This document shows positions 5,773 through 63,296 of a stretch of 64,000 nt of DNA, piece by piece; position 1 is the first letter of the stretch, and every line of letters begins with the position of its first letter. The notes beneath the pieces were generated by a model, which saw only the letters and a program-made list of their open reading frames with translations, had not been told where the DNA came from and searched no databases. The translations under genes and the position numbers were made by a program. Location: NCBI RefSeq assembly GCF_009769735.1, contig NZ_WSRO01000002.1:2988001-3052000 (forward strand). The letters are read 5' to 3'. The DNA comes from Streptomyces sp. BA2 (GTDB taxonomy: Bacteria > Actinomycetota > Actinomycetes > Streptomycetales > Streptomycetaceae).

Positions 5773-5813
5773 CTCGCGCGCGCTGCCGGCTGCGGCTGTT
5801 CGCTGGTCGCTGC

Positions 5814-5840
5814 GGGGCAATCGAGTGGGTGGGCGGGAAA
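5814..5840. repeat. Family B repeat fragment (GTGGGTGGGCGGGAAA)
   Basis: The segment GGGGCAATCGAGTGGGTGGG followed by CGGGAAA is the reverse-orientation half of the family B element also found at 35.3, 41.4, 47.5, 57.2 and 59.4 kb. Here the opposite arm is missing. It lies between the GH89 hairpin and the TPR gene. Confidence 0.7.
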
Positions 5841-8332: not shown

Positions 8333-8734
8333 TCAGGCGGACGGGACCGGGCCCCGCAGATCCTTCTCCAGGAGCATCACGCCGTACGTGCTCCCGTCCG
8401 CCGCCACCTTCCCCGGCAGCTCCCCCAGCACGGCATAACCCGCCGCCTCGTAGTACTCCCGCAACCGCGGGTTGGCCGACACGCAGTCCAGGCGGCAGCG
8501 CTCCCTGCCCGCCTCCGCGATCCGCCGTTCCGCGCGCGCCAGCATCGCGCGGCCCGTTCCCGCCGGGGCACCGCGCCGGGTCATCAGGCGGTGCACGTAG
8601 CCCGCGACGGGCGGCTGTTCGCCCCAGGCGGGCTCGTCCGCCCACCACACCTCGTACGCACCGGTGACCATCTCGCCGTCGTAGAGGGCGACGAGGGTGG
8701 GGATGTCCTCTTCGCCGGCCAGGCGGTGGGTCAA
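8333..8734 (-). CDS. GNAT-family N-acetyltransferase
   Basis: 133 residues starting with TTG at 8734, which overlaps the TGA of the upstream TetR gene (TTGA). The ribosome site AGGAG lies 8 bases before it and no other in-frame start is available, so translational coupling is likely. The acetyl-CoA binding region is seen in RGAPAGTGRAMLARAERRIA (motif A, R-G-x-G-T/A-G type), followed by CRLDCVSANPRLREYYEAAG, the usual strand 5, helix 4 and N-x-x-x-x-x-Y-Y-x-x-x-G-Y. The family transfers acetyl groups from acetyl-CoA to small amines or protein amino groups; the substrate is unknown. It ends 4 bp from the stop of the convergent sigma-like gene. Confidence 0.85.
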   Translation of the reverse strand: MTHRLAGEEDIPTLVALYDGEMVTGAYEVWWADEPAWGEQPPVAGYVHRLMTRRGAPAGTGRAMLARAERRIAEAGRERCRLDCVSANPRLREYYEAAGYAVLGELPGKVAADGSTYGVMLLEKDLRGPVPSA

Positions 8735-9435
8735 CTGCTCTGCTCCTGCGGGGCGAGGCCGACCAGGCGGGTGATGAGCTCGGCGAACGGTCCGTCCGGG
8801 GGCTCCTCGACGAGGATGCGGCGCAGGATCGCGGCCATCCCGTCGTCGTAGGCGGCGCTCACCGCGGCGAGCGCCGCGAAGTCGTGCACCAGCTGCAGCT
8901 CCAGCTCGGCGCGCGGGATGCGGCGTCCGTCGAGCCAGATGAGTGCCGTGGACTCGGCGAGCGAGATCCAGGAGCGGACCACCAGTTCGAGCCTGGCGGA
9001 CGGGTCCGTGATGCCCAGGTGCGTGAGGATCTGGACGTACGCCGCCTGCCGCACCGAATCGATCAGCGCGTTGGTGGTGGAAGAGCCGACGGCGGGGCCG
9101 CCGCGCATCAGCGCGGAGAAGCCGGGGCCGTGGCCGTCCACGAAGTCCAGGAAGCGTCCCATCACGCGCAGCAGGCGCGCGCCGAGCGGGCCTTCCCTCG
9201 GTTCCACGAAGCGCTCGGCGAGATCGTCGGCCGCGCGCTGCAACGCCGCTTCGTACAGGCTGAGTTTGCCCGGGAAGTAGTGGTAGACCAGCGGTCGCGA
9301 TATGCCCGCGGCCGCTGCTATCTCGTCGATGGACACATCGTCGGGCGAGCGGTGGCTGAACAGGTCGAGCGCGACCCCGATCAACTGCTGCCGCCGCTCC
9401 TCGACACCCATTCTGCGGCGCACCCCGGTAGTCAT
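8731..9435 (-). CDS. TetR/AcrR-family regulator
   Basis: 234 residues from ATG at 9435. The N-terminal HTH is complete: GVEERRQQLIGVALDLFSHR, then DVSIDEIAAAAGISRPLVYHYFPGKLSLY (about residues 10-60). The ligand domain has the TetR_C arrangement of Streptomyces regulators often described near lipid or fatty acid genes (GRFLDFVDGHGPGFSALMRG, and RLELVVRSWISLAESTALIW). It sits 77 bp downstream of the ferredoxin reductase gene on the same strand and is coupled to the GNAT gene, so it probably controls the diiron protein and reductase operon. I found no convincing palindrome in the 77-bp gap. Confidence 0.9.
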   Translation of the reverse strand: MTTGVRRRMGVEERRQQLIGVALDLFSHRSPDDVSIDEIAAAAGISRPLVYHYFPGKLSLYEAALQRAADDLAERFVEPREGPLGARLLRVMGRFLDFVDGHGPGFSALMRGGPAVGSSTTNALIDSVRQAAYVQILTHLGITDPSARLELVVRSWISLAESTALIWLDGRRIPRAELELQLVHDFAALAAVSAAYDDGMAAILRRILVEEPPDGPFAELITRLVGLAPQEQSS

Positions 9436-9512
9436 GCGAACACCTTACCGAGCAGATCCGGCCGTCCAAGGGGCCGGTGCGCCCCAACCGTTCACATCTC
9501 GGCGGCGATGTC

Positions 9513-10583
9513 TCACATGTCCAGGACGATTCGGCCACCGCTCGCCCTCGACACACAGATCAGCATCGAGTCGGCGCGCTCGGCGTCCGTGAGCAGTTCG
9601 TCCCTGTGGTCGATCTCCCCTTCCAGGACCCGCTGTTGGCAGGTTCCGCAGAAGCCCTGCTCGCAGGAGTACGCGGTGTTGGGCAGCTCCGCGCGCACCG
9701 CGGTCAACACCGTGGTGTCCGCGGCCACGGAGAGAGTCCGTCCGCTGCGGCGCAGTTCCACCTCGAAGGTGGCGTTGCCCTCCGTGGAGGTGTGGGGCGT
9801 GAAGCGCTCCAGGTGCAGCTCGGCGCCCTCGGGCAGCGTCGCCGCCACCGCCTCCATCAGGCCCTCGGGGCCGCAGACGTGGACCGCGGTGGAGGGCGCG
9901 AGGTCCGCGAGGAATGCGGCGAGGTCGGGGCGGCCGCCCTCGTCATCCGCGACGACCGTGAGCCGGCCCGCCGTCGTGCCCGCCAGTTTCTCCACGTCCT
10001 CCAGGAACGGCATCGAGGCCCGGGAGCGCCCCCCGTACAGCAGCCGCCACGCACGGCCCGCGGCCTCGACTTCCCTCAGCATGGGGAGGATCGGGGTGAT
10101 GCCGATGCCGCCCGCCACGAAGACGTACGTCTCGGCGTCGGCCAGCGGGAAACGGTTGCGCGGGCCGCGCACCTCGACCTCCGTCCCCTCCTGGAGCTGC
10201 TCGTGCACCTCGCGCGAGCCGCCGCGGCCGCCCTGCTCCTCGCCGATGAGGCGGGTCGCGACGGTGTACGAGGAGGTGTCCTCCGGGTCCCCGCACAGCG
10301 AGTACTGGCGGACGAGGCCGGAGGGGAGGACCAGGTCCAGGTGGGCGCCCGGCTTCCAGGCGGGCAAGTGGTCGCCCTCCAGCCGCAGTTGTACGACTCC
10401 GTCGGCGATCGTCTCGTGCCGGGTGACGGTCAGGCGCAGCGCTCGGGAGCGCGGCCGCCCCGAGACCGGCTCCTGAAGGGCGGGCAGCGGCCACAGCGGG
10501 GAGGCGTCGATGCGCCGCCGCATGGCCCGCTTGGCGAGCAGGGCGGCGCCCGTGACGAGCAGGACAGTGCGGATGCGGGGCAT
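9513..10583 (-). CDS. PDR/VanB-type ferredoxin reductase (FMN/NAD/2Fe-2S)
   Basis: 356 residues from ATG at 10583, one base after the stop of the upstream gene (TGACATG), with AAGGGAG as ribosome site. Residues 1-20 include a short hydrophobic stretch (IRTVLLVTGAALLA) that may tether it to the membrane. Flavin domain about 48-150 with RQYSLCG (92-98); NAD domain with AGGIGITPILPML (157-169) and VHVCGPEGLM; C-terminal plant-type 2Fe-2S domain with C307, C312, C315 (CEQGFCGTC) and C343. This order is that of phthalate dioxygenase reductase, which passes electrons from NAD(P)H to an oxygenase. The partner is very likely the diiron protein encoded directly upstream. Confidence 0.93.
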   Translation of the reverse strand: MPRIRTVLLVTGAALLAKRAMRRRIDASPLWPLPALQEPVSGRPRSRALRLTVTRHETIADGVVQLRLEGDHLPAWKPGAHLDLVLPSGLVRQYSLCGDPEDTSSYTVATRLIGEEQGGRGGSREVHEQLQEGTEVEVRGPRNRFPLADAETYVFVAGGIGITPILPMLREVEAAGRAWRLLYGGRSRASMPFLEDVEKLAGTTAGRLTVVADDEGGRPDLAAFLADLAPSTAVHVCGPEGLMEAVAATLPEGAELHLERFTPHTSTEGNATFEVELRRSGRTLSVAADTTVLTAVRAELPNTAYSCEQGFCGTCQQRVLEGEIDHRDELLTDAERADSMLICVSRASGGRIVLDM

Positions 10584-18889: not shown

Positions 18890-19089
18890 CCCCAATCCCG
18901 CCCCTTCCCGAAACTGGGGCTCCGCCCCAGACCCCGCTCCTCAAACGCCGGAGGGGCTGAAAGGCATGTCCGGACCGGCGGGAAATCTCAGCCCGTCCGG
19001 CGTTTGAGGACGAACTCGGCGAAGCCGGTGATGACGGCCACCAGGGCCCCCGCGCCAGAGCGGGTTTTCGGGAAGGGGCGGGGTTGGGG
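18890..19089. repeat. Family A intergenic inverted-repeat element (complete copy)
   Basis: Outer arms: CCCCAATCCCGCCCCTTCCC then GA (18890-18911) and the complementary TCGGGAAGGGGCGGGGTTGG then GG (19068-19089), with one mismatch. Inner arms: TCCTCAAACGCCGGA (18938-18952) and TCCGGCGTTTGAGGA (18996-19010), perfect and extended by GGGCTGA/TCAGCCC. A small hairpin tggggc-tcc-gcccca sits at 18914-18928. It fills almost all of the gap between the permease and amidohydrolase genes, both on the reverse strand. Related copies are at 29.1 kb (outer arms only) and 59.4 kb. Confidence 0.85.
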
Positions 19090-25569: not shown

Positions 25570-26004
25570 ATGGAATACACACTCGAGGTGATCCCGCTCC
25601 CTGTCAGTGACGTCGACCGGGCCATGGAGTTCTACCGCGACAAGCTCGGCTTCCACGTGGACATCGACCAGGAGGTCATGCCGGGCATGCGCATCGTCCA
25701 GCTGACCCCGCCGGGGTCCGGCTGTTCCATCGCCCTCGCCGACACCCTCTGGGACACGATGGACGGACCGACCCCGGCCCCCGGTTCCTACCAGGGCCTT
25801 CAACTGTGCGTCGCCGACGCGAAGGCGGCGCACGCCGAGCTGACGGCGCGCGGCCTGGACGTCACGGAGCCGGTGGCTCACGCGCCGCAGGACGGCGGCA
25901 CGTTCATGTACTTCAAGGACCCGGACGGCAATGGCTGGGCGATCCAGGAGTACCGGGTCCGCGGGACTACGCCACTGCGGGAGGCGATCGTCAGCGCCCC
26001 GTAA
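25570..26004 (+). CDS. VOC-family protein, copy 2
   Basis: 144 residues from ATG at 25570. It aligns along its full length with copy 1 (LEVIPLPVSDVDRAMEFYRD, QLTPPGSGCSIALADTLWD, YQGLQLCVADAKAAHAELTA, FMYFKDPDGNGWAIQEYRVR), so the pair arose by tandem duplication. Position 8 is Ile/Pro-rich where classic VOC enzymes carry a metal-binding His. Function is unknown; binding of a small hydrophobic ligand is as likely as catalysis. The stop codon overlaps the first base pair of a large two-part inverted repeat that separates it from convergent glnA2. Confidence 0.88.
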   Translation: MEYTLEVIPLPVSDVDRAMEFYRDKLGFHVDIDQEVMPGMRIVQLTPPGSGCSIALADTLWDTMDGPTPAPGSYQGLQLCVADAKAAHAELTARGLDVTEPVAHAPQDGGTFMYFKDPDGNGWAIQEYRVRGTTPLREAIVSAP

Positions 26005-26121
26005 GGGGCGCGGGGAACTGCGCGCTCAGCCAACGAAAAGCCGCAGTCGCGTCTGCCGGGACACCGAGCAGATGCGACTGCGGCTTTTCTGTGGTTGCTC
26101 GCGCAGTTCCCCGCGCCCCTT
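26003..26121. terminator. Nested double hairpin, bidirectional terminator
   Basis: Outer arms: 22 bp, beginning AAGGGGCGCGGGGAACTGCG at 26003-26024, pair perfectly with 26100-26121. Inner arms: AAAAGCCGCAGTCGC (26036-26050) pair perfectly with GCGACTGCGGCTTTT (26074-26088), giving a T-tract after the stem on both strands. It separates the convergent VOC and glnA2 genes. The GGGGCGCGGGGAACTGCGCG element is, as I recall, a common Streptomyces intergenic repeat. Confidence 0.9.
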
Positions 26122-26130
26122 CCAGGGGCT

Positions 26131-35208: not shown

Positions 35209-35584
35209 TGGCCCTGCGGTATCTCTTCCGGGGGCGGGGGCTTCGGGGGGCGCTTGTCTGGGTGGCCCGGCGGTATCCCCTGAACCGCCGCTGCGCGGCG
35301 GGTGTCTCCCACCCACCCGCCCGACCCCCCGCAGCCGCCTCCGCCCGAACAAGCCTTTCCCGCCCACCCACCCGATTGCCCGGTCGCGGGTCGTGGGCCA
35401 CGGCGCCTGGCAGCCCGTTTCCACTGCCGGGTGATCAGGTGGGTGGGTGGGAAGAACGCCGCGAAGCGGCGACCCAGGGCCGGGAGCCGCACGAACAGCA
35501 CGCACCGCACCCGCACCCACGTGGCCAATGTGCGCTGCCGGGTAACGGGTAGGTGGGTGGGAAAAACCGGCGCGGAGCGCTGGG
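35209..35584. repeat. 376-bp convergent gap filled with four family B repeat copies
   Basis: There is no gene here. Copies: 35285-35325 (CCGCCGCTGCGCGGCGGGTG with CCCACCCACCCGCCCG), 35358-35381 (TTTCCCGCCCACCCACCCGA then TTGCCC), 35428-35466 reversed (CCGGGTGATCAGGTGGGTGG and onward through CGCCGCGAAGCGGCG), and 35538-35565 reversed (CCGGGTAACGGGTAGGTGGG and onward). Forward and reversed copies can pair with one another in several ways. It separates the convergent LacI and alpha/beta-hydrolase genes and is the densest cluster of the family in the window. Confidence 0.8.
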
Positions 35585-41405: not shown

Positions 41406-41433
41406 CCCCCGGGGTGGGCGGGCTGATCCTGTA

Positions 41434-41481
41434 CCGCCGCTTCGCGGCGGATCTTTCCCGCCCACCCACCCGATTACCCGG
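41434..41481. repeat. Family B element, also terminator between nadE and MFS gene
   Basis: A perfect 7-bp hairpin CCGCCGC-TTC-GCGGCGG (41434-41450) is followed by ATCTTTCCCGCCCACCCACC then CGATTACCCGG (to 41481). The stop codon of the reverse-strand MFS gene (41474-41476) lies inside the element, so its last codons come from repeat sequence. Confidence 0.8.
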
Positions 41482-47527: not shown

Positions 47528-47530
47528 GTC

Positions 47531-47573
47531 CGCCGCTTCGCGGCGATGTCTCTCGCCCACCCACCCGTTACCC
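47531..47573. repeat. Family B element between panB and ABC exporter genes
   Basis: CGCCGC-TTC-GCGGCG hairpin (47531-47545) followed by ATGTCTCTCGCCCACCCACC then CGTTACCCC (to 47574). Same order as the copy at 41434, with small differences. Confidence 0.75.
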
Positions 47574-56502: not shown

Positions 56503-57117
56503 ATGGACGCCGTACGGGTAGCGCTGCTGCGCGAAGTGCTCGCGGGAACCGAGTGGGTGGGCGCGACGCGCCGCTTCGCGGGGACGCTGCGTTCCTCGGT
56601 CGTGCCGCACGGCGGGGGTCTCCTCCTCGTGGGCACTCAGGAGTACGAGCCGTGGCATCTGGCCGCGCATCTCGTGGACGAGGCGGCGTGGTCCGGGACG
56701 CCGGAACTGACGCCGACGCTCGTACGCCACCGGGTGCGGGACGGCGATCCCGTGCACCTTTCGACCGGGCTCGGCCGGATCGAGGCGGCGAGGCGGGGAG
56801 AGACCCTGCTGGTGGTGGCGCCGGACACGCCCGCTCCGCCGCCGGGGGCGGACCTCCTTGAGCGGGTCCACGACGCCCGCGCGGCGGGCGCGACGGTACT
56901 GTCCCTGGGTCCGGGGCACGGTGATCTGCGGGCCATGGCCCACGAAGCCCTGCCGGTGCCGGAGTCGCCCGACATCGACCTGGACATGGTCCAGCACCTG
57001 GTGAGCGCGGCGGCGGGCGAGAACTCGCTCCCGGCGGCGCGAGGTCGCCGACGGCTTCGTGACCGGTTGTCCCGCCTGGCCGACCAGCTGACGGCGCCGC
57101 CACCGGCGCGGTGGTGA
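56503..57117 (+). CDS. Conserved actinobacterial protein of unknown function, SIS-like C-terminal half
   Basis: 204 residues from ATG at 56503. Alternating hydrophobic strands such as GGGLLLVGTQEYEPWHLAAH and GETLLVVAPDTP, then AAGATVLSLGPGHGDLRAMA and MVQHLVSAAAGENSLPAARG, suggest a Rossmann-type sandwich, possibly SIS-related. No signal or membrane segment. I do not recognise it with certainty. Placed upstream of the strongest family B hairpin. Confidence 0.7.
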   Translation: MDAVRVALLREVLAGTEWVGATRRFAGTLRSSVVPHGGGLLLVGTQEYEPWHLAAHLVDEAAWSGTPELTPTLVRHRVRDGDPVHLSTGLGRIEAARRGETLLVVAPDTPAPPPGADLLERVHDARAAGATVLSLGPGHGDLRAMAHEALPVPESPDIDLDMVQHLVSAAAGENSLPAARGRRRLRDRLSRLADQLTAPPPARW

Positions 57118-57150
57118 GGCTTCTGGCGGGGGCGCCTTCTGCGGTGAACC

Positions 57151-57256
57151 CTGAGCCGCCGCTGCGCGGCGGATGTCTCCCGCCCACCCACCCGTTTGCC
57201 CTGCGGGGTAATCGGGTGGGTGGGCGGGAAAGATCCGCCGCGCAGCGGCGGCTCAG
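57151..57256. terminator. Family B perfect-form element: 51-bp near-perfect inverted repeat
   Basis: Bases 57151-57201 pair with 57206-57256 around a 4-base loop; I count only about four mismatches. Each arm itself contains the CCGCCGCTGCGCGGCGG hairpin and GCCCACCCACCCG. It lies between the convergent gene at 56503 and the gene at 57380, so it can end transcription both ways. Confidence 0.92.
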
Positions 57257-57379
57257 TTCCCACGGTGCTGGCGGCGGGCGTCGGGCGGCCTCGCGCGCGT
57301 GGCCTCGGTCGCCGCTCTGACGGCGGTACTGCCGAAGCTGCTGTCCACCGCGGGGTGACGGGCCGTCCCGGCGGCGGGG

Positions 57380-57613
57380 TCAGGCCTTGCCCCCCTCGCC
57401 CCGGGCGTCCTTGTCATGCCACTTCGGGTCGGTCTCCCACTCCAGGTTCCGCTCGGCGGCGGTCTCCATCGCCCGCTGGGCCTCCTCCCGGGAGGCGTAC
57501 GGCCCGAAGCGGTCCTTGCCCGGACAGTCGGGGCCCTCCTCGACCTTCTTGTGCTCCAGGCAGTAGAACCACTCGCCCGGTTTACCGACGGTCCGCTTCT
57601 TGAACAGTGGCAT
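57380..57613 (-). CDS. Small conserved actinobacterial protein
   Basis: 77 residues from ATG at 57613, fixed by GAGGAG six bases upstream; the eight-residue extension upstream is non-coding-like. It contains [20 protein letters not shown], with two Cys about 15 apart and His, which could bind zinc, and [20 protein letters not shown], a short SPOR-like alpha/beta repeat. No signal. Divergent from map, with only 57 bp between starts. Confidence 0.8.
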
Positions 57614-57670
57614 GGTCTGCTCCTCTCTCTCCGCCATGCTGCCCCACCACCGCTGGTTAGACTCGCTTGC

Positions 57671-58528
57671 ATGTCTGGCCAGTCACTGCTCGTACCAGGG
57701 GAGCTCTCTCCCATCCGCCCCGTTCCGGGAAACATCAGGCGCCCGGAGTACGTGGGGAAACCCGCGCCCACCCCGTACACCGGGCCCGAGGTGCAGACCC
57801 CCGAGACCATCGAGCTGATGCGCACCGCGGGCCGTATCGCTGCCCGCGCGATGGCCGAGGCCGCCAAGCACATCGCGCCCGGGGTGACCACCGACGAGCT
57901 GGACCGCGTCGCCCACGAGTACATGTGCGACCACGGCGCCTACCCCTCCACGCTCGGCTACCGCGGCTTCAAGAAGTCGCTGTGCACCTCCGTCAACGAG
58001 GTCATCTGCCACGGCATCCCGGACTCCACCGTCCTGGGCGACGGCGACATCATCAACCTCGACGTGACCGCGTACATCGGCGGGGTGCACGGCGACAACA
58101 ACGCCACGTACCTGGTCGGGGACGTCGACGAGGAGTCCACCCTGCTCGTGGAGCGGACCCGCGAGTCCCTCGACCGCGCCATCAAGGCGGTCAAGCCCGG
58201 CCGCCAGATCAACATCATCGGCCGCGTCATCGAGTCGTACGCCAAGCGCTTCGGCTACGGCGTCGTCCGCGACTTCACCGGCCACGGCATCAACACGTCC
58301 TTCCACTCCGGCCTGATCGTCCCGCACTACGACAGCCCGCACGCGACGACCACCATCCAGCCCGGCATGACGTTCACGATCGAGCCGATGCTGACCCTCG
58401 GCACGTACGAGTACGACATGTGGGAGGACGGCTGGACCGTGGTGACGAAGGACCGCAAGCGGACCGCGCAGTTCGAGCACACGCTCGTGGTGACGGACAG
58501 CGGGGCGGAGATCCTTACGCTTCCCTGA
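57671..58528 (+). CDS. map: Methionine aminopeptidase, type I
   Basis: 285 residues from ATG at 57671. It removes the initiator methionine from new proteins. Dinuclear metal ligands all present: D131 and D142 ([12 protein letters not shown]), H205 (TGHGI), E238 (IEPML) and E269 (FEHT). The N-terminal 40-residue extension ([20 protein letters not shown]) is the actinobacterial type 1c form with a proline-rich linker. Followed by the iron-regulated heme locus. Confidence 0.96.
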
Positions 58529-59335: not shown

Positions 59336-59385
59336 GGCGTCCCTGCGGGCCCCCGAAACTGGGGGCTCCGCCCCCAGACCCCCGC

Positions 59386-59548
59386 TCCTCAAACGCCGGA
59401 GGGGCTATTTTTCCCGCCCACCCACCCGATTGCCCCGCAGCTGATTTTCCAGCCCGTCCGGCGTTTGAGGACGAACTCGGCGGAGCCGGTGATGACGGCA
59501 ACCAAGGCCCTCGCGCCAGCGAGTTTTCGGGAAGGGGCGGGGTTGGGG
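59386..59548. repeat. Family A element with family B inserted in its loop
   Basis: Inner arms TCCTCAAACGCCGGA (59386-59400) and TCCGGCGTTTGAGGA (59457-59471) as in the copy at 18.9 kb. The loop holds TTTTTCCCGCCCACCCACCC then GATTGCCCC (59408-59437), a piece of family B. The right outer arm TCGGGAAGGGGCGGGGTTGG then GG is at 59527-59548; the left outer arm is missing. It separates the convergent heme oxygenase and PhzF genes. Confidence 0.85.
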
Positions 59549-61826: not shown

Positions 61827-63296
61827 TCAGGTCTGGTCGGCGCCGCGCCGTTTGCGTACGACTCCGAACGTGACCGCCGCTGCGAGCAGCACCGCCACGC
61901 CCGCCCCGACACCGATCGGCACGGCGGGCGACGAGGAGTCGGACGAGTCGGCGGCGTTCTCGGTCTTCGGCTCGGCGGGCTTCTTCGCCTGCGGTGTCGG
62001 GCTCGCGGACGAGCCGAGGTCCGGCAGGGCGGGCAGCTTCGCCTCGGCGTCGAGGGCGACGGCGAGAGAGAGCGGGTCCATCTCGGAGCCCGCCTTGTAC
62101 ATGCCGCCGAACGCCTTGGCACCGTCAGCGGTGAGCTTCGACGGCACTTCGGTGAGGGAGACGAGCCCGTCCTTCGGCTTCAGCTCCTTGGCCGCGAAGG
62201 TGATCAGCGGGGCCTTCTTCAGCGTGACGCCCTTGTCGCCCTTGCTTTTCGAGCCCTTGCTTTTCGAGCCCTTGCTTTTCGAGCCCTTGCTGTCGACGTC
62301 GGCGAAGAGCGTGCCCTTGCCGTCCTCCTTCACCTCGACGGCGACCTTGCTCAGGGCGAGGTCGAGGCCGTGCTCGCCGGTGAAGCGCACCGTGCCCGCG
62401 AAGTCCGCGTCGAGGGTCTGCTTCTTCTTGTCGTACGTCCCCTCGCCCTGCGGGAAGCGGAAGAGCGCGCCGCCGTCCTGGGCCCCGGCGGACAGTTTCC
62501 ATTCACCCTTGGCGATGGAGCCGGTGACGTACTCGCGGAAGGTGCGGCGCACGCCCCAGTCGACGGCGGCGTCCTCGATCCGGCCGGTCTTCACCTCCGC
62601 CTTCTTCCCGGACTCCGAGGGCTTCGGCGAGGGCTTCTTCGACGGCTTGCCGGAGCCGGGCTTCGCCGCGAGGTCCGTGGACAGGCTCACCCGGTCGAGC
62701 TCGGTGCCCGCCGTGTAGTACCCGGCGAAGGCCTTCGCTCCCTGGGAAGTGAGCGTGGCGGGGAGGTTGTTGAGGGCGATCGGTCCTGAGCCGCCCTTCA
62801 TGTCGATGCCGGACATGCCGAGGGTCGCGAGCGGCACCTGGGCGGTGGATGTGACCTTGCCCGTGCCCTTCTCCTTGCTGACCATGTCGGCGTAGAGCGT
62901 GCCGGAGCCGCCGGAGATCTTGACGGTGGGGCGGCTGATGGTGAGGTCGAGCTCGTACGAGCCGCCCTTCTTGTGGCCGAGGAAGTGCACCCCGCCGGAG
63001 AACCCGGCGCTGAAGGCCCCGCTGTCCGGGTCGTACGAGCCCTTCGCCGAGTGGAAGCGGAACTGGCTGCCGCCGACCGTGGCGGCGCCGCCCCGCAGCG
63101 TCGAACTCCCCTGGGCGATGGGCCCGGTGACGTAGCTCTGGAAGGAGGATTTGATGCCCCAGTCGAGCCGTCCGCCCTGGACCGTGCGGTCATCGGCGTG
63201 CGCGGCGGCCGCGGGAAGCAGTGCTCCGACGAGTGCGGTGAGCACGGCCACGGCTCCGGCGCGGGCGATGGCTCGCGCCTGTCTTGACGACGACAT
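61827..63296 (-). CDS. HtaA-domain heme-binding protein with C-terminal membrane anchor
   Basis: 489 residues from ATG at 63296 (GGAGGGG upstream). Signal peptide 1-35. Two HtaA domains (about 40-210 and 245-410) starting LDWGIKSSFQSYVTGPIAQG and VDWGVRRTFREYVTGSIAKG. A Lys/Ser-rich insert in the second domain (SKGSKSKGSKSKGSKSKGDK) is encoded by a 15-bp tandem repeat. The end is a membrane helix (VPIGVGAGVAVLLAAAVTFG) and RKRRG, without LPXTG/LAXTG, so it stays in the membrane. It would take heme from the wall-bound partner and hand it to the binding protein of the ABC transporter. Iron box upstream at 63320. Confidence 0.92.
   Translation of the reverse strand: MSSSRQARAIARAGAVAVLTALVGALLPAAAAHADDRTVQGGRLDWGIKSSFQSYVTGPIAQGSSTLRGGAATVGGSQFRFHSAKGSYDPDSGAFSAGFSGGVHFLGHKKGGSYELDLTISRPTVKISGGSGTLYADMVSKEKGTGKVTSTAQVPLATLGMSGIDMKGGSGPIALNNLPATLTSQGAKAFAGYYTAGTELDRVSLSTDLAAKPGSGKPSKKPSPKPSESGKKAEVKTGRIEDAAVDWGVRRTFREYVTGSIAKGEWKLSAGAQDGGALFRFPQGEGTYDKKKQTLDADFAGTVRFTGEHGLDLALSKVAVEVKEDGKGTLFADVDSKGSKSKGSKSKGSKSKGDKGVTLKKAPLITFAAKELKPKDGLVSLTEVPSKLTADGAKAFGGMYKAGSEMDPLSLAVALDAEAKLPALPDLGSSASPTPQAKKPAEPKTENAADSSDSSSPAVPIGVGAGVAVLLAAAVTFGVVRKRRGADQT
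62238..62290. repeat. 15-bp tandem repeat inside the membrane HtaA gene
   Basis: gcccttgcttttcga occurs three times without a mismatch (62238-62252, 62253-62267, 62268-62282), then partially to 62290. On the coding strand it gives SKGSK blocks. The frame is preserved, so copy number may vary. Confidence 0.9.

Follow-up and report, generated by a model that had tools for sequence, protein, structure and literature searches.

Why should two convergent genes of Streptomyces sp. BA2 be separated by a long palindrome, and what kind of element is it? The initial annotation of the window (the whole 64,000-nucleotide stretch of DNA that was analysed) described a 51-bp near-perfect inverted repeat with a 4-base loop between convergent genes, and this description held. 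The arms (57151-57201 and 57206-57256, 51 nt each) are 92% complementary around a 4-nt loop. The repeat is flanked by a plus-strand gene (56503-57117, 204 aa) and a minus-strand gene (57380-57637, 85 aa), neither assigned to a Pfam family, and ranks second in length among the 13 inverted repeats listed for the window. The predicted fold of 57141-57266 had an energy of -119.2 kcal/mol, compared to a shuffle mean of -60.5 (z = -15.5), and none of 200 shuffles equalled it. Rfam returned nine matches on 56800-57700 up to E 5, none of which reached the gathering score; the likeness of the palindrome to miRNA precursors was discounted as one of long-hairpin shape only. A terminator scan of 56900-57700 left the palindrome unflagged.

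A doublet of a dispersed intergenic unit

Two copies of a dispersed intergenic unit of about 50 nt, placed head to head, make up the palindrome. The earlier reading overlooked this composite build, in which two inverted units each carry a nearly invariant four-tract quadruplex or i-motif sequence. The left arm is one unit in plus orientation (hairpin, spacer and C tracts; unit HMM match 57155-57202) and the right arm is a second unit on the minus strand (HMM match 57205-57252). In each, a 7-bp hairpin is followed by a short spacer rich in T and C and then by four CCC tracts separated by single-base loops, the tracts reading GGG on the opposite strand. The full order begins with the hairpin CCGCCGC-TNC-GCGGCGG and continues through a spacer resembling ATCTTT or ATGTCT to CCCNCCCNCCCNCCC, GATTRCCC and often CGCAG. 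In the left arm the hairpin (CCGCCGC-TGC-GCGGCGG, 57156-57172) and the four tracts (57179-57193) are read on the plus strand, with the G strand on the minus; in the right arm the hairpin (57235-57251) and tracts (57214-57228) are read on the minus strand, which places GGG on the plus. Other copies vary in that the stem is CCCGCGC/GCGCGGG, the 5' part resembles CGAACAAGC or the hairpin is CTCCTCAAACGCCGGAGG. Downstream of the unit hairpin, the longest T run varies among copies from about 3 to 6, and GTAG, judged by eye in the 12 nt before the hairpin, was present at none of 49 sites.

The window holds ten units by the unit HMM, which bears out the earlier claim that the palindrome is the full form of a repeat family. 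In addition to the focal two (57155 and 57205), a cluster of four related units in the order + + - - occupies a convergent gap (35284-35579), and single plus-strand units are found at 41433-41481 and at 47530-47573, the latter directly behind another hairpin with a T run. At 59407-59437 (plus) the core is joined to another hairpin family, CTCCTCAAACGCCGGAGG, and at 5813-5840 (minus) there is a core-type copy without the CCGCCGC hairpin. Only the focal two units abut (3-nt gap); the other inward pair, within the cluster, is 45 nt apart.

Other repeats were noted in the window. A longer inverted repeat of a different family (25997-26127; 60-nt arms, 87%) contains GGGGCGCGGGGAACTGCGCG, and S. phaeochromogenes (L192) has a similar palindrome in its counterpart of the gap near 57.2 kb. 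A TCCTCAAACGCCGGAGGGGCTGA inverted repeat is found at 18938-19010 and 59380-59520 and is repeated directly over 70 nt at 59450; at 59384-59439 a member of this family is joined to the core, and the same gap of two other loci (L151 and L206) contains related palindromes. A 15-bp tandem repeat, GCCCTTGCTTTTCGA, spans 62238-62291.

The earlier note had also proposed a copy count, and in the BA2 genome itself further copies proved to be many, the opposite of the lack of copies that the note had named as one ground for refutation. The unit HMM, seeded from halves in the window, found 64 units in 1.2 Mb (E up to 0.1) and 76 in 1.612 Mb of the 10-Mb genome (E up to 0.02). BLAST with 126 bp gave 143 matches, many spanning one half only, in a search that scored 40 of 162 first-look candidates and in which a palindrome counts on both strands. 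Allowing one mismatch, CCCGCCCACCCACCCG occurred at 161 places, compared to 30 for the reversed control; CCCNCCCNCCCNCCCG occurred at 182 places, compared to 7. Exact matches within the window numbered 6, with 0.06 expected. One minisatellite (L035 1000-2208, G000:C2 about 2446873-2448081) is built of 12.5 copies of a 97-bp repeat, and this repeat includes the GGG-tract core.

Placement and orientation between genes

Genes were called with a purpose-built codon-usage caller, units were assigned by their midpoints, and expectation was taken from placement by intergenic bases. None of the 76 midpoints in 1.612 Mb fell inside a called gene; 74 units lie in 45 called intergenic regions, and the other two, at the start of a block, fall in no called region. 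The 45 regions comprise 18 convergent, 23 same-direction and 4 divergent gaps. Convergent gaps are enriched (18 compared to 9.6 by chance, p 0.003) and divergent gaps depleted (4 compared to 12.8, p 0.001). The same trend was seen in 0.8 Mb of S. longisporoflavus, where 40 of 41 units lie in 25 regions (10 convergent, 13 same-direction and 2 divergent; convergent p 0.006, divergent p 0.025).

Adjacent units in a gap follow a stricter rule. The pairs were ++ 6, +- 16, -- 7 and -+ 0 in BA2 and ++ 3, +- 4, -- 8 and -+ 0 in S. longisporoflavus, and none of 14 pairs on 15 motif-chosen pieces of Streptomyces WAC 01529 was -+. Over the three genomes all 58 adjacent pairs are thus tandem or inward and none faces outward, so that in a convergent gap the hairpin is the first part of a unit that a polymerase reaches, whichever side it comes from. 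Inward pairs are also found in same-direction gaps, which indicates that the rule belongs to the element. Single units are less regular: in same-direction gaps of both species, 10 of 13 hairpin singlets read from the gene end and 3 point away, and for core-type singlets the figures are 2 and 5 of 7. Strict orientation by gene direction, which held for hairpin singlets in the first 1.2 Mb, was abandoned when more DNA brought the score to 10 of 13 over both species.

Constraint, turnover and distribution

Conservation within the unit was examined at sites anchored by the hairpin only. There were 49 (36 in BA2 and 13 in S. longisporoflavus), of which 46 have the core, taken as a match to the template at 14 or more of 20 positions; the other three were left out. 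In the 46 units, whose copies are not independent, 551 of the 552 tract bases are C, while the loops depart from the majority in 33 of 138 and the GATTA stretch in 64 of 230. All twelve tract bases are present, in the register used, at 45 of the 46 core-bearing sites. Nearly invariant tracts with drifting loops are the pattern that a conserved quadruplex or i-motif would produce.

An ortholog comparison with S. longisporoflavus was restricted to cores with intact tracts in BA2 and gap-free alignments, which favours conservation; of 17 rows, two (19 aligned flank bases; 7 tract differences) were dropped. In the 15 cores counted, tracts differ at 12 of 180 positions, loops at 20 of 45 and flanks at 71 of 399. 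Ten of the 12 tract differences stem from two mispaired rows, in which one core is paired with non-unit DNA; without these rows tracts differ at 2 of 156 positions and loops at 16 of 39. At fixed orthologous sites the loops have changed around tracts that stayed intact, which suggests constraint after insertion. The one-base-loop motif is itself concentrated in the family: of 88 occurrences in 1.612 Mb, 67 are in units, none is in a called gene and 21 are elsewhere in intergenic DNA (mostly core-type relatives and a few homopolymer runs), compared to 2 in the 1.18 Mb taken from other Streptomyces (79 loci). A run of some 40 G in block O5600 (G000:C2 about 5633057-5633100) is possibly an assembly feature.

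The energy model favoured a quadruplex for the single G strand (RNA, -53.2 compared to -22.1 kcal/mol), the long hairpin over the quadruplex for full-doublet RNA, and a mixed form for doublet DNA (-76.6 compared to -68.6). The unit hairpin was assessed in 103 distinct units chosen by their core, leaving out 31 CGAACAAGC-type units of 145 and 11 duplicates. Pairing was retained in 588 of 708 cells, compared to at most 580 with shuffled partners and at most 65% with slid partners. Changes on both sides of the stem affected 16 cells, no excess over the 12 to 27 of the slid controls, and covariation therefore contributes little. A stem of at least 6 bp ending 3-14 nt before the core was present for 81 of 145 cores, compared to 400 of 3000 random intergenic pieces.

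The focal site was compared across 80 named loci, of which 70 keep the 85-aa gene downstream, and 47 of those have 1.3-1.9 kb between the two genes; the core is present in the gap at 1 of the 70 scoreable loci, that of S. longisporoflavus (L150), and an ancient conserved site was accordingly rejected. L150 has one plus-strand unit followed by an MFS gene (8900-10010 reads as MFS). The window keeps only about 66 bp of that gene, the end of the transporter (57280-57345, plus; 88% to L150 9946-10011), and the inverted unit stands at the junction. From this arrangement, the palindrome probably arose together with, or later than, the deletion of the MFS gene. Behind the unit in L150, at 8649-8780, shortened repeats of the core stand in tandem at about 25 bp.

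Turnover is rapid. Among 45 BA2 unit regions, 21 were syntenic in the S. longisporoflavus DNA fetched, a sample in which several contigs were picked for carrying matches; 10 of the 21 hold a unit, one of them a decayed relic, and 11 are empty. In the reverse direction 10 of 11 syntenic places hold a unit in BA2. On contig C5, which was chosen by synteny, 11 units at 7 BA2 places compare to one good unit and one relic. The initial annotation had suggested checking whether the element varies in position among related strains; between close relatives the positions do vary, about half of the places being unshared with the closest relative found. No target duplication could be made out at the six places that were aligned to S. 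longisporoflavus, where the flanks are mostly diverged or rearranged, and none of the six was a clean empty site.

The family is confined to a few Streptomyces lineages. In 150 genomes of the genus the strict core occurred 83 times in BA2, 28 times in S. longisporoflavus (G123) and twice at one place in a third genome (G058), with a control of 0; it was absent from the remaining 147 and from the other 395 of a 396-genome sample of the phylum, 11 of which are of the same genus. A looser core, sought at 50 of the 80 named loci, occurred 39 times in S. longisporoflavus and not in the 49 other named Streptomyces. The four-tract motif stood out in S. longisporoflavus (77, control 2) and WAC 01529 (G093; 131, control 6) and was high in G014, G121 and G122 but with equally high controls; a few genomes had a small excess. 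WAC 01529 carries a sister subfamily with the same hairpin followed by ...CCCGTTCACCCCGCG. Another genome (G106; five pieces, L369-L373) has a repeat of other build, in which a hairpin, often GGGGCTCCGCCCC, precedes a four-tract core and GACTCGGTGGG or a like sequence; this hints at more than one origin of the architecture.

Function and comparison with known systems

We favour a REPIN-like repeat acting as a two-way barrier at gene ends, with a probability of about 0.45. The analysis establishes the anatomy, copy number, location, inward pairing, tract constraint and restriction to few lineages, whereas blocking, termination and a quadruplex in the cell are all inferred. A polymerase from either gene would transcribe the unit hairpin first and then AUCUUU-like RNA, and would next meet a template strand able to form a very stable quadruplex. 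Hairpin and quadruplex-prone template would both favour pausing and release, and the arrangement would be mirrored for the opposing polymerase. Read-through of a close doublet would yield an RNA hairpin of about 51 bp as a backstop, defining or protecting the 3' end. Extrusion of the palindrome as a cruciform and cutting by RNase III, both raised in the initial annotation, are possible. The family would have spread in REPIN-like fashion, as singlets and inward doublets.

Convergent enrichment, divergent depletion and the lack of outward pairs among 58 argue for the barrier, as do the tract constraint, hairpin pairing above shuffles and the predicted quadruplex of the G strand. Against it stand the silence of the terminator scan on the palindrome and the short T run, the inward rule in same-direction gaps, which gene direction alone does not explain, and the singlets that point away from the gene end (3 of 13 hairpin and 5 of 7 core-type). 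Also against it are the preference of doublet RNA for the long hairpin, the placement of at least one unit (47530) directly behind another hairpin with a T run, the roughly half of places unshared with the closest relative and the double hairpin changes that do not exceed slid controls.

The main rival, which we consider a substantial possibility though well short of probable, is a selfish REPIN- or MITE-like non-autonomous repeat without host function. Its copying machinery would recognise the hairpin and tracts, and its copies would survive where least harmful, at gene ends and in convergent gaps. Such a repeat would account for the lineage-restricted expansions, the fast turnover, with no unit at 11 of the 21 syntenic places of S. 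longisporoflavus, the avoidance of genes and divergent gaps and the inward doublets regardless of gene direction. It accords poorly with intact tracts beside changed loops at orthologous fixed sites and with the searches for a mobile source. No Y1/RAYT transposase (PF01797) was found in the BA2 genome or in WAC 01529, plasmid, phage and viral-contig searches gave no matching copy, which speaks against such a source, and no target duplication was seen at the six aligned places, most of them with diverged or rearranged flanks. S. longisporoflavus has three PF01797 fragments, two lying at the start of a contig and one in the interior, with no credible unit in the 1.6-3.2 kb fetched around each. 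Mobilisation of the family by Y1/RAYT is unsupported for BA2, and a search of the Y1 family found no parent transposon.

An ordinary Rho-independent terminator that is long by chance would suit the convergent position and the hairpin followed by ATCTTT-like DNA. It is nonetheless improbable, given near-identical sequence at dozens of places in only a few species, no core in the gap at any of the 69 further loci that keep both genes, no flag in the terminator scan and invariant GGG tracts that termination does not need. A putative protein-binding or nucleoid-structuring site, at which G/C tracts or the hairpin are recognised as DNA and transcription effects are incidental, fits the strong sequence constraint and the inward arrangement independent of gene direction but is very improbable, since depletion at divergent (promoter) gaps and convergent enrichment point to gene ends.

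A broader form of the barrier reading, that a few Streptomyces lineages separately filled gene ends with a modular inward hairpin and one-base-loop quadruplex acting as a two-sided polymerase barrier, is unlikely as a whole. Selected roles for quadruplexes in bacteria are an open question. If this form were true, the family would offer, across a whole genome, a natural collection of selected quadruplexes, and what a quadruplex does in a bacterial cell could be read from their place and orientation. Dozens of copies, with GGG tracts kept and loops drifting, positions outside called genes, no outward pair among 58 and presence or absence at orthologous gaps of close species, form a natural allelic series, suited to testing the effect of hairpin plus quadruplex on transcription ends.

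REP, BIME and REPIN elements with RAYT transposases are short extragenic stem-loop units in many lineage-specific copies, as singlets and inverted doublets, and a GTAG tetranucleotide before the stem is a feature of REP and REPIN. The BA2 unit is likewise a short extragenic stem-loop (74 of 76 in called intergenic regions) with inverted doublets (16 +- pairs in BA2, 4 in S. longisporoflavus, no -+), but its genome has no Y1/RAYT protein, its hairpins are without GTAG (0 of 49) and its most constrained part is the four-tract quadruplex motif. Like MITEs it is short, non-coding and dispersed, with an inverted-symmetric doublet; unlike them, single units have no terminal inverted repeats. Target duplication was not recognised at the six aligned places, whose flanks are mostly diverged or rearranged. 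It shares with intrinsic and bidirectional terminators a GC-rich hairpin, a T/C-rich stretch, location at gene ends and convergent enrichment, and differs from intrinsic terminators in its short T run, the silent scan, its spread as a family in few species and its four-tract motif. The definition of a quadruplex motif, four GGG tracts with short loops, applies to 46 of the 49 hairpin-anchored sites, with folding predicted by the energy model only. Quadruplex-forming repeats are enriched in single bacterial groups such as Xanthomonas and Nostoc, and the BA2 repeat resembles these in being dispersed, with intact G tracts, far above other genomes. Unlike those repeats as described, the BA2 tracts are joined to a hairpin and set in inward-facing pairs.
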